A model generated the notes under the pieces. That model was not told where the DNA came from. It made no database searches and saw only the letters and a program-made list of their open reading frames with translations. The position numbers were made by a program, and so were the translations under genes. A stretch of 64,000 bases of DNA from Gammaproteobacteria bacterium (lineage in GTDB: Bacteria > Pseudomonadota > Gammaproteobacteria > UBA4575). Below, piece by piece: positions 5,590 through 15,163 of the stretch. Within the stretch, counting starts at the first letter, position 1. Each line of letters starts with the position of its first letter. The stretch is taken from the NCBI GenBank assembly GCA_026706595.1, contig JAPOYL010000021.1, forward strand, positions 1 through 64,000, read 5' to 3'.

Positions 5590-5697
5590 CGTCTTGCCGG
5601 GGATGAACCGAGAGGGAGCGTCCGCTGGCTGAAGCAGACCGGTTGACGTGGCCGGTCATGCGGATCAGGAATTTCTGCATCGCACCCGTGGTGCGAT

Positions 5698-7282
5698 ATG
5701 CTGCATGGTAATGGCAACTGTTTCAGAAAGACTGACAGCGCACCGGTGGCATTGTGCCCCAGGGGTGCTGTTTGTGGCCATCGCCGGATTTCTCATGGCC
5801 GCGTGTTCACAAAAATTGATGCCGCCGACCGAGGAGTCGGCGCAGCACTTGCCCGAAAAATTCACCGGCGAAGCCGCGGGTGAGGCCTACGCGCCACTGC
5901 AGTGGTGGAAAACATTCAACGACCCGGGGCTGGACCGGGTCGTCGAGGCCGTACTCACATCGAACCTCGACCTGGCAGAAGCCGTGGCGCGGGTTGAGCA
6001 GGCCCGGGCCCGGGCGGGCATTGCAAATGCCGCCAGGTACCCTGCGCTGCAGCCATCTGCGTCCGGCGAGGACACGGATACACCCACCAATGCGGGCGTG
6101 GGGGAGCAGATTGAAGAGATCGGGTTGAGCCCGGAACTCAAGCAGGAGTTCGGCATTTCCGTACCGGACCGCCTGGCGGTGACCACGTACTCCCTGAATG
6201 CAAACTTCTCCTACGAGGCCGACTTCTGGGGCCGCAACCGCAATGATGCACGGGCGGCGCGTGCCCAGCACCTGGCTTCGGAGTGGGATTACCGGGCCGC
6301 GCGGATCGGGGTGGTTGCAGAAACCGTGCGCACGTACATCGAGATCGCCTGGTTGCGCCGTCAACTTAAGCTGTCAGACGAGATCGTGGGGATCCTGCAG
6401 GAGCGCGAGAAGCTCACTACGGCCCGCTATCAGCGTGGCCTCAACACGGCGCGTGAACTCTATACCGCACGGCTGCAACTGTGGAACTCGCAAGCTGAAC
6501 TGCCAGCCGTCCGGGGGCGCCTGGCCGATGCAGAAGGGCGCCTGTGGACCTTGCTGGGCGGGTACCGGGCGGACCTGGCCGGCATGTTGCCTGATGCCCT
6601 GTCGCCCTCTGCAACATTCGATCGCATTCCAGTGGGCATCCCGGCCGACCTCCTCACTCAGCGTCCCGATGTGGGCGCGGCCCAGCAGCGAATGCAGGCG
6701 GCCCGCTATGCCGTCGGGGCCCGGCGCGCCGAGCTGCTGCCGTCGCTGTCCTTGTCCGGCACCATCGGGCTGCAGGGCTCGGACACCCGCGAGTGGCTGG
6801 ATGCGGCCCAGTGGTTCAAGAACCTGAGCCTGAATCTGGTCGGGCCGGTATTCCAGGGCAAGCGGCTGCGTCACAATGTGACCCTCGCGGAGACCCGCCT
6901 GAAAGAGGCGGTTTTTGCGTACAGGCACTCGGTGGTCACCGCGGTCAACGAGGTCGAGGCCGTGCTGACCCGGCTTGAGACCAGCCAGCAGCGCCATGCC
7001 CTGCTGAGCTCGTCCGTCGAGGAAGCCCGGGCGGAGGCGGCCTTTCAGGAACGCCGCTACGGGTCCGGAGTCGGCGACTACGATGCCTTTCTGGCAGCCT
7101 CGGAAACGCTCACCAGCATGAAATCCTCGCTGGCGGCAGCAGAACGCGATCTGGGGTACATGCGCCTCGCGCTGCATCGCGCGCTGGGAGGCGTGTGGAC
7201 GGCGGCCGATCCCGAAGCGGCACGAATCGACGATTCTCCACAGGTTGCGGACCTTCGGGCCGCATCCCCAGCCACGGAGTGA
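5698..7282 (+). CDS. Outer membrane efflux lipoprotein of RND system (NodT/OprM family); exact start uncertain
   Basis: ORF 5648..7282; MAACSQKLMPPTEES lipobox-like region, YEADFWGRNRNDARAARAQ, LTQRPDVGAAQQRMQAARYAVGARRAELLPSLSLSG. Start could be any of several in-frame Met codons. Confidence 0.9.
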
Positions 7283-7288
7283 ACCGGC

Positions 7289-8518
7289 ATGAATAGACTG
7301 AAGGACAGACTGAAAAGCTACCTGGTTGCCGCTGGGGTCCTGGCGGGTGCGGTAGTGCTGGCATCCATCCTGGTTTCACTGGCTCCAGAGCCGGAACGCG
7401 TTGAGCAACCGCCTCAAATTCCGTTCGTGCAGTCCGCCCAGGTGGTTACCGGGGTTGGAGCCATCCCCGTGTACGGTGCGGGAACCGTGCGGCCCAGCGC
7501 GGAAATTGACATCACCTCGCAAGTCAGTGGCCGGGTCGACTGGATGAATCCGAGTTTCCACAGCGGTGGGCGGATCAAGGCGGGCGATACGATCTTCCGC
7601 ATCGAACAGGAGGACTACCAGTATCGCCTGCGCGAGGCCATGGCCGATCTCGAGGACCGGAAAGTGGCCCTGCTCGAGGCCCGGGAGTTGGCGGCCGTCG
7701 CCCGTACCGAATTCGAGCAGTTCTCCGGGCGCCAACGGGAGTCCGGGTCCACGGTCACCCAGGCAAGTCCCCTGGTGTTGCGAGAACCCCAGCTGAAGGC
7801 CGCCCAGGCCGCGCTGAAACGCGAGGAGGCCAAGGTCGCCGAAGCCAAGCTTGCGTTGGCCCGAACCAGTGTGAAGGCACCCTTTGACGGCTATGTGCGC
7901 GAGGAATCCGTGGACATCGGCCAGTTTCTGACCGTGGGCCAGGTCGTCGGGCGGCTGTTCGCCGCCGATGCGGTCGAGGTGGTTCTGCCCCTGTCCGATG
8001 CCAACACCGCGCTGATCCCCGGACTGTGGGAGCTTCAGGCGGGGGATGCCAAGCAACGGGTGAATGCGCGCGTCATCGCGAGATATGCAGATGCCCACTA
8101 CGCCTGGGACGGCTATGTGGACCGCGCCGAGGCATCACTCGACAAGCAGACACGCACCATCGACGTGATTGTGCGTGTCCCCGAGCCCTTTTCTGCAGGC
8201 ACCCAGGTCGGCTCGCAAGACCACATCCGCCAGGCCCCGCCGCTTCTGGTGGGCAAGTTCGTGGAGGTCGAAATCGAGGGACTTACGCCGGAGAGCTATT
8301 TCCGCATCCCGCGTTCGGCCCTGCAGCCGGGGAACGAGGTCTGGGTCATCGGCGATGAGCAAAGGGTCGGTATTGTCCCGCTACAGGTCCTGCAGCGCGG
8401 CAATGACGAGATCTTCGTGACCGGCGCCCTTGAAAAGGGACAGGCCGTTGTCACGGGTGGCATTCAGTTTGCCACCGAAGGCATGAGGGTACGCAGTCTG
8501 GACACGGGACAACAATGA
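7289..8518 (+). CDS. RND efflux periplasmic adaptor (membrane fusion protein)
   Basis: GAGTVRPSAEIDITSQVSGRVDWMNPSFHSGGRIKAGDTIFRIEQEDY; TSVKAPFDGYVREESVDIGQFLTVGQ. Confidence 0.92.
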   Translation: MNRLKDRLKSYLVAAGVLAGAVVLASILVSLAPEPERVEQPPQIPFVQSAQVVTGVGAIPVYGAGTVRPSAEIDITSQVSGRVDWMNPSFHSGGRIKAGDTIFRIEQEDYQYRLREAMADLEDRKVALLEARELAAVARTEFEQFSGRQRESGSTVTQASPLVLREPQLKAAQAALKREEAKVAEAKLALARTSVKAPFDGYVREESVDIGQFLTVGQVVGRLFAADAVEVVLPLSDANTALIPGLWELQAGDAKQRVNARVIARYADAHYAWDGYVDRAEASLDKQTRTIDVIVRVPEPFSAGTQVGSQDHIRQAPPLLVGKFVEVEIEGLTPESYFRIPRSALQPGNEVWVIGDEQRVGIVPLQVLQRGNDEIFVTGALEKGQAVVTGGIQFATEGMRVRSLDTGQQ

Positions 8519-13137: not shown

Positions 13138-13158
13138 GCGGCACGCGCCGCTGTTTTT
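13138..13158 (+). terminator. Rho-independent terminator candidate after the Rieske gene
   Basis: GCGGC-acgc-GCCGC followed by TGTTTTT between the two convergent genes. Confidence 0.55.
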
Positions 13159-15163
13159 AATGGAGGCTTATGGGATTCCTGGCTTCGGCAACGTGAAACT
13201 TCATTTTCTTGTTCGGTGCCGAGGTCGGAAAGGGGTTGATGCCCAGCTTGTAGTTGTCGGGCTTCAGTTCCAGCCTGAAGTGATGGGCGATGAGCAGGAG
13301 ATTGACCATCATCTGCAAATTGACCCAGCGATGTCCGAGGCAGGCATGCGTGCCGAGTCCGTAGGGCGCGTAGGCACACGGGATCAGGTGTTCCTGACGC
13401 TCTTTATTGTAGCGCTCGATGTCAAACTTCATCGGGTCCTTGAACACATCATCCATGTAGTGTGTGGCGGTCTGGCATACCAGCAAGCGGGTTCTGGAGG
13501 GCACCTCGTACTCATCGATGACGCAGTTATTCATCGCCGTTCGCAGCTGCCAGGGGATCACAGGAAACATGCGTTCGGTTTCAAGAAACACCCGGTGGGC
13601 GACATCGATATTTGACGGCTCAAAATCCTTCGCATCCGGTTCCCTTCCGTTGCCGAACAAGGCATCCGCTTCCTGGCACACCTGCTCATACAAATCGGGA
13701 TGACTCACCATGCAGTACAACGCGAAAGCCAGTCCGCTGCCAAGATAGATGCTGGCGACCATCGAGGCTACGAACGGAAATACGATATCTGTTTCGGGCA
13801 GGAACTGCGGGTCGCTTCTGTGAAGTTCGAGAACGGCATCGGCAAGGTCTGGATGCTGCCCCTCCCGCTGTGCCGGCGTGTGCGTGGCATGGATAGATTC
13901 GACAAGCTTTCGAACCGCCTTCTTGGCTCGATTCATGCGTGGTGTGTGCAGCAGGATTTTCGGTGTCATCCCGGACACGTGGGCGTTCAGCGCACGGTGC
14001 TCGTAGGCCAGAAGGTCATCAACATAGTCGGCACAGTCCACGCTGATCATGAGATGGGAAATCTGGCTGCTGACATGGTTCTGGCAGGCTTTGGCCGCGC
14101 TCAGCATGGCGCCCGGCTGCCATTGGCTGAGGGATTTCCGGCACAGCTCAATAAGCTGCGGGAGCTTTTGGGAAAGATTGGCCCTTGAATACACGTAGCG
14201 CAGTGATTTTCTCAATCGGTAGTGTTCCGCCCCGTCCATGCCCGGCAACGTGCGCGATGCACCAAATTCGCCTTCCAGATTCCTGATGTAGTCTTTCGAG
14301 CGAAGATAAAACCTTCCTTTTTTCTGAACCCACTGATTGGTATTCAGACCGATCAGCAGGAGCAATTTCTGCCCCTCTATCTTCATCGGTGCCTCAACGA
14401 CCGGTCCGTACTTGTCATGAATCTGGCAGAGGGCCCTGGATATGAAGCCCTTGCGGAAATTCGAGTTGCCCAGGATGTCGGATATCTTCATCTTGGGGAT
14501 GGGCTTGGTCCGGATGCTGTGTTTCGTCTTCGGCTGGATGGTGCTTAGCTTGACGGCCTTGGAGATCGACTGGCCGACCAGGTCCATCGAGGCCAGCATT
14601 TCGATGCGCTCGATTTTCTCCTGGTAGTCTTCCTCGCTGAGAATGAGCTTGAATCCCCCGCATGTATGCATGAGGCAGATGAGGATGACATCACGGGGAT
14701 CCGGGATGACGTCGTTCAGGATGACGTTCAGGATTCTTGACTTGGCCTCCTCCCGGGATGAGCCATCGACCTTGGGGTAGGTCTTGGTACGGGAAACGGA
14801 TCGTGACAATGTCCAGAACCCGCCTGATTCGTGTTCCAGGACCCCCTTTTCAACCAAGCGGTCCAGTGCAGTTTCGACGATATCTTCGGAAAGCGGGGTA
14901 TTTTTTTCTATCCAGTACTGGGTGTTATAGGTGTCCTGTGCTTCGCTGATCTTCTTCAGTGAGGGATCGAGCAAGGGGTCGCCGGTCGGGCTCTCATCGA
15001 TCAGATGCAAGGAGTCCAGATCGGTGTCAATCCGAAATTCCAGGGCAAGGTCGGCGATTACCGCACCCGCGATGACGCACGAGAAGTCCCAGCCCGGCAC
15101 CATCTCGAGGTAGCCGCTTTGCTCATCGAGCATCAAAAGGAGCAGTTCTTCAATCAGGCGCAC
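13157..15163 (-). CDS. GPP34/GOLPH3-like domain fused to cytochrome P450 (668 aa)
   Basis: N-term: MRLIEELLLLMLDEQSGYLEMVPGWDFSCVIAGAVIADLALEFRIDTDLDSLHLIDESPTGDPLLDPSLKKI...ALDRLVEKGVLEHE...DPRDVILICLMHTC (GPP34-like). C-term: ExxR (ETER), heme motif PYGLGTHACLGHRWVNLQ (P450). Confidence 0.9.
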   Translation of the reverse strand: MRLIEELLLLMLDEQSGYLEMVPGWDFSCVIAGAVIADLALEFRIDTDLDSLHLIDESPTGDPLLDPSLKKISEAQDTYNTQYWIEKNTPLSEDIVETALDRLVEKGVLEHESGGFWTLSRSVSRTKTYPKVDGSSREEAKSRILNVILNDVIPDPRDVILICLMHTCGGFKLILSEEDYQEKIERIEMLASMDLVGQSISKAVKLSTIQPKTKHSIRTKPIPKMKISDILGNSNFRKGFISRALCQIHDKYGPVVEAPMKIEGQKLLLLIGLNTNQWVQKKGRFYLRSKDYIRNLEGEFGASRTLPGMDGAEHYRLRKSLRYVYSRANLSQKLPQLIELCRKSLSQWQPGAMLSAAKACQNHVSSQISHLMISVDCADYVDDLLAYEHRALNAHVSGMTPKILLHTPRMNRAKKAVRKLVESIHATHTPAQREGQHPDLADAVLELHRSDPQFLPETDIVFPFVASMVASIYLGSGLAFALYCMVSHPDLYEQVCQEADALFGNGREPDAKDFEPSNIDVAHRVFLETERMFPVIPWQLRTAMNNCVIDEYEVPSRTRLLVCQTATHYMDDVFKDPMKFDIERYNKERQEHLIPCAYAPYGLGTHACLGHRWVNLQMMVNLLLIAHHFRLELKPDNYKLGINPFPTSAPNKKMKFHVAEARNPISLH

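Follow-up and report, generated by a model that had tools for sequence, protein, structure and literature searches.

The window, a 64,000-nucleotide stretch of contig JAPOYL010000021.1 from a gammaproteobacterial assembly (GCA_026706595.1; genome G000 below), carries on its reverse strand a gene in which a GPP34 (GOLPH3-like) domain is joined through a basic linker to a cytochrome P450, and on its forward strand the genes of an RND efflux pump and a KshA-like Rieske oxygenase. The features are listed in Table 1, together with related loci elsewhere.

Table 1. Features of the window and related loci. Positions are those of the window unless a locus is named.
Feature	Location	Strand	Basis or content
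Outer membrane efflux protein of the pump	5648..7282	+	Pfam OEP; synteny; start codon uncertain
HlyD-type membrane fusion protein of the pump	7289..8518	+	Domain match; phylogenetic profile
RND efflux pump (AcrB family), 1074 aa	8515..11739	+	Pfam ACR_tran, 505 bits
KshA-like Rieske oxygenase, 356 aa	12026..13096	+	Pfam Rieske and KshA_C; KshA chains are the best match
GPP34–P450 fusion gene, 668 aa	13157..15163	-	GTG start, no internal stop
Cytochrome P450 part, residues 236–668	13160..14458	-	Pfam match 405–645; full-length alignment to solved P450s
Haem-binding loop PYGLGTHACLG, residues 600–610, ligand C608	13334..13366	-	C608 invariant in five relatives
ExxR motif ETER, residues 528–531	13571..13582	-	E and R invariant in five relatives
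Altered I-helix ASIYLGS, residues 470–476	13736..13756	-	Alignments; related P450s read AGxDT there
Basic linker, residues 206–235	14459..14548	-	Net charge +7 over residues 200–232
GPP34 (GOLPH3-like) domain, residues 3–205	14549..15157	-	Pfam PF05719, 120.9 bits; GOLPH3 and Vps74 chains matched by phmmer
Squalene epoxidase and oxidosqualene cyclase in one ORF, about 1147 residues	G000:C32, L058 6066-9506	+	
Apparent sterol cluster	G000:C32, L058 1175-10583		SdmB-like, SdmA-like, CYP51-like P450, epoxidase-cyclase, sterol methyltransferase
Second GPP34 protein	G000:C18, L060 7510-8715	-	Hydrophobic cytochrome-b-like part; multihaem cytochrome c gene 6012-7496 adjacent
GPP34–MFS transporter fusion, G035	L007 1465-3354	+	GPP34 N-terminal to MFS
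GPP34–MFS transporter fusion, G330	L043 193-2097	-	GPP34 N-terminal to MFS
P450 fused to two cyclic-nucleotide-binding domains, G378	L162 664-3189	-	
Plasmid cluster, Planktothrix agardhii plasmid p2	NZ_LR882940.1 (L168)		Oxidosqualene cyclase, squalene synthase family gene, several P450s

An earlier note on this DNA had described the fusion as a single open reading frame that encodes both a GPP34 and a P450 domain, and both statements were borne out. The Pfam GPP34 profile matched with an E value of 9.9e-35 (cut-off 29.1 bits) over profile positions 1–199 of 201, and the p450 profile (PF00067) matched with an E value of 4.7e-34 and 118.4 bits (cut-off 22.8). By phmmer, a comparison of sequences only, the N-terminal 214 residues matched the solved structures of GOLPH3 (3kn1, E 1.3e-7) and Vps74 (2zii, E 5.1e-6). 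The note had assigned about 215 N-terminal residues to GPP34; the domain is confirmed, but its match ends before that point, at the start of the linker. The two P450 motifs that it had read, ETER and PYGLGTHACLGH, are both present, and the residues that characterize the P450 family (E528, R531 and C608) are conserved. An ATG stands at the position of the window's GTG start codon in the relatives of L033 (record WTFY01000008.1) and L034 (record VXPJ01000072.1), which were assigned to genomes G004 and G001, respectively, by matching coordinates and identities. A structure model of the whole protein, built from three sequences, had a mean pLDDT of 33 and was unusable for fold comparison.

Conservation and genomic setting of the fusion

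A survey of other genomes for the same architecture found four further intact fusions, in G001, G002, G004 and G197, so that the five known copies belong to two gammaproteobacterial families. Identity to the window protein was 79% for G004, 74% for G001, 44% for G002 and 45% for G197, the last of these being from another family. Synonymous changes outnumbered amino-acid changes in both domains (dN/dS of about 0.04–0.11 for GPP34 and 0.10–0.20 for the P450), and purifying selection was evident across both domains plus the linker. All of the genomes seen are draft assemblies, a point in favour of two genes having been joined by misassembly or a frameshift; however, the same single frame crosses the junction in all five assemblies. 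With an unbroken reading frame and purifying selection in five genomes from two families, the gene is real and selected, and an artefactual origin is contradicted to the point of being negligible. The architecture is also rare. The full fusion was present in 2 of 369 sampled genomes of the class (only G000 and G197), a sample of 399 genomes of the phylum yielded no further full fusion, and within the order of the window genome GPP34 proteins were detected only in the window's genus. Among the titles listed by literature searches, there was no relevant report of a GPP34–P450 fusion, nor of a squalene-epoxidase/cyclase fusion.

Each of the five genomes has an OEP–HlyD–RND pump next to the fusion gene, in arrangements that differ. 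In the orientation of the window, the order is pump, Rieske gene and P450 (reverse) in G000; pump, P450 (reverse) and Rieske gene in G004; pump and P450 (reverse) in G001; and pump, Rieske gene and P450, all forward, in G002. In G197, the P450 gene is divergent from the outer-membrane gene. When 26 genomes were tested, HlyD copies 70–91% identical were obtained from exactly the five fusion genomes and from none of the 21 others, in which the best match was 33%. Close copies of the KshA-like Rieske protein were confined to G000, G002 and G004, where they adjoin the fusion gene in three arrangements; the gene is missing from G001 and G197. The window Rieske protein was also considered as a possible SdmA, and this identity was rejected, its match to the NCBIfam SdmA profile being 31.5 bits, below the cut-off of 600; an SdmA-like gene sits in the sterol cluster instead.

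A protein combining squalene epoxidase and oxidosqualene cyclase, 69–91% identical, was found in all five fusion genomes, and in the window genome it lies in an apparent sterol cluster. The presence of an oxidosqualene cyclase sterol cluster in every fusion genome, with the fusion gene always beside the same pump, is new here. In addition to the copies in G001, G002, G004 and G197, an open frame of similar make-up was seen in G046 (L131). Across the 369 class genomes, a cyclase match greater than 400 bits was obtained in only six, both fusion genomes of the sample included. The other four lack the fusion, and the DCTAE motif was read in the cyclases of three of them; the three weaker matches that were examined carry the hopene-cyclase DxDD motif. 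If genomes were placed at random, the probability of both fusion genomes falling among the six with a cyclase would be 15/67896 (about 2e-4), a value that is weakened by shared descent and gene transfer. Genome G003, of the window's genus, has a partial cyclase but lacks both the fusion gene and the pump.

A relative of the fused P450 is found on a cyanobacterial plasmid. The Planktothrix P450, the closest plasmid relative, is two genes apart from a cyclase that is 56% identical to that of the window genome and is itself adjoined by a squalene synthase family gene. The plasmid search returned no record covering 80% of the query.

The P450 and GPP34 modules

In the tree, the five fused P450s form one clade with full support. 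Nearest to it are stand-alone P450s of G490, G260 and G356, and next out are the Planktothrix plasmid P450 and the G378 P450 that is joined to two cyclic-nucleotide-binding domains; several of these branches are long. Since the G378 protein carries such domains, a regulatory domain was gained at least once within this P450 clade. The fused P450 of G002 (L037) groups with that of G197 (L051), from another family, and not with those of its own genus, which is a hint of gene transfer or of old paralogues. The stand-alone P450 of G490 (G490:C21, L148) is located among CoA-transferase, thiolase, SDR, enoyl-CoA hydratase and TonB-receptor-like genes, surroundings that, with gene content read by eye, look like a catabolic cluster.

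A profile search of solved P450s ranked bacterial CYP51 structures first for the P450 part, with Methylococcus-type CYP51 at the top. The possibility that the fused P450 is itself a CYP51 was ruled out by the tree, in which the CYP51-like P450s of the fusion genomes fall in a different clade, and by the absence of the HTS motif. The I-helix of the fused proteins reads ASI-YLGS (YPGS in G001) or AGH-YLGS, with a one-residue gap, at the position where stand-alone relatives read AGLDT. The canonical acid-alcohol pair of (A/G)Gx(D/E)T is therefore missing from all five fused proteins in the alignment, as it is from the G378 P450. To judge from P450s in general, the loss of this proton-delivery pair may point to the use of peroxide, to catalysis assisted by the substrate or to a rearrangement.

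We take the PI4P pocket of GOLPH3 to consist of W81, R90, R171 and R174, the three arginines being the lipid contacts. Upon alignment to human GOLPH3, these residues face V22, A32, E93 and V96 of the window protein. The earlier note had stated that the PI4P-contact arginines are not all present, which was correct, none of the three being kept; its tentative view that the conserved tryptophan is kept did not hold, because W81 faces V22 and not W25. Arginine never occupies the R90 position in the 19 bacterial GPP34 domains that were aligned; at the R174 position it occurs in several but not in the P450-fused ones, and W25 is found only in the P450-fused domains. A GGFW motif in the hairpin region is conserved. 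Across the five fused proteins, the GPP34 domain has a net charge of -18 to -20 (about -20 in the window protein), and the linker one of +3 to +9.

GPP34 domains are also joined to other partners. In G000, G001, G004 and G197, a second GPP34 protein has a hydrophobic part that we read as cytochrome-b-like, Pfam naming only GPP34 there, and in G000, G001 and G004 its gene has a multihaem cytochrome c gene as its neighbour. Only one GPP34 protein was detected in G002. In G035 and G330, GPP34 is fused to an MFS transporter; several GPP34 genes were seen in G035. Since the MFS and cytochrome-b-like partners are membrane proteins in their own right, GPP34 probably does more than simple anchoring.

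Interpretation and comparison with known systems

The reading that we prefer, which on the sequence evidence could as well be wrong as right, is that the fusion protein may be a sterol- or triterpenoid-tailoring haem enzyme that works together with an export pump, with GPP34 either positioning it near the membrane, a partner or the pump or regulating it. We infer its substrate, reaction, export step and GPP34 ligand as follows. The P450 part would come from a small bacterial P450 clade with members in isoprenoid-lipid gene contexts and would act on a compound that the cell itself makes through its oxidosqualene cyclase; the KshA-like Rieske oxygenase would probably work alongside it in three of the genomes. 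The adjacent pump would export the product or a related lipid, and GPP34 would hold the P450 at the membrane or the pump by way of a lipid or protein partner other than PI4P.

The evidence for sterol tailoring is genomic association: the epoxidase-cyclase accompanies the fusion in five of five genomes, with the sterol genes of the window genome in one region; the pump is equally constant, its close HlyD copies being restricted to these genomes; and the Planktothrix relative near a cyclase and the ranking of CYP51 structures point the same way. Shared descent and symbiont gene transfer could, however, carry unrelated genes together, and there are cyclase genomes with no fusion (G003, whose cyclase is partial, and four others of the class), fusion genomes with no Rieske gene (G001 and G197), and many compounds that RND pumps export. 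The P450 might instead act on a non-sterol lipid, such as a polyketide or fatty acid, the co-presence of the sterol cluster being a lineage effect. In keeping with this, the association is confined to two families and the tree shows signs of gene transfer, and a polyketide synthase-like gene lies on the contig of the sterol cluster, but the cyanobacterial plasmid provides an independent link between a related P450 and an oxidosqualene cyclase cluster, and we consider a non-sterol substrate rather doubtful.

With respect to GPP34, the earlier note had proposed a module that docks on a membrane or lipid and delivers the P450 to a hydrophobic substrate; this was considered here as a GOLPH3-style dock on a phosphoinositide or other anionic lipid, with the substrate dissolved in the membrane. 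The hydrophobic substrate has gained support, in that gene co-occurrence and the context of related P450s argue for a sterol or triterpenoid, and a likely lipid substrate, the clear GPP34 homology, the conserved GGFW and the basic linker would all suit such a dock. The phosphoinositide part is unsupported, since the PI4P arginines are absent, W81 aligns with Val, the domain carries a strong negative charge, and other GPP34 domains are attached to integral membrane proteins, which need no dock. We therefore regard such a dock as unlikely; GPP34 may still dock on a different lipid or on a protein. It is plausible, though we lean slightly against it, that GPP34 serves chiefly for protein-protein contacts or ligand sensing, and thereby couples or regulates partners (the pump, the Rieske protein or the GPP34–cytochrome-b-like protein of the same cell), and is not a membrane anchor. 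Its position N-terminal to unrelated partners, integral membrane proteins included, and the cyclic-nucleotide-binding domains of the G378 P450 are in keeping with such a role, but the single GPP34 protein detected in G002 speaks against it.

A broader and speculative extension of the sterol-tailoring reading, to which we give little credence, is a bacterial unit for processing and exporting sterols. In it, GPP34 modules would serve as address tags and bring unrelated proteins together at a single place in the membrane, beside the RND pump; here these would be the P450, with its altered I-helix chemistry, and the cytochrome-b-like membrane protein. Bacterial GPP34 proteins have hardly been studied, and a conserved GPP34–enzyme fusion, together with GPP34 on transporters and on a cytochrome-b-like protein, offers a way to probe the role of GPP34 outside the Golgi. 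For bacteria that bear sterol genes, the fusion is also a candidate through which sterol tailoring and export can be tested.

To judge by the MAG names, the present genomes may be of sponge origin. Steroid gene clusters have been described in sponge-symbiont bacteria and resemble the cluster of the window genome in their CYP51, cyclase, sterol methyltransferase and SdmA/SdmB genes (PMC9531527, PMC10070321); PMC10070321 makes no mention of P450, and GPP34 is unmentioned in the available passages of PMC9531527. Bacterial CYP51 enzymes are, by profile search, the closest solved relatives of the P450 part and share with it a His at haem-loop position C-2, whereas the fused P450 lies in a separate clade, has YLGS in place of HTS in the I-helix, and is encoded in a genome that has its own CYP51-like P450. 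P450-reductase fusions such as CYP102, and the P450–cyclic-nucleotide-binding protein of G378, likewise join a P450 to a second domain in one chain, but unlike the reductase, GPP34 is not a redox partner. GOLPH3-like proteins were previously undescribed in prokaryotes according to a 2025 paper, in which SCO4440 of Streptomyces, a GOLPH3-domain protein, was linked to wall-deficient cell formation (PMC12402492); stand-alone bacterial proteins of the SCO4440 type belong to the same Pfam family as the window domain, and SCO4440 is described without a P450. Relative to GOLPH3 and Vps74 themselves, the window domain is homologous over residues 3–205 but is bacterial, strongly acidic, devoid of the PI4P arginines and fused to an enzyme.
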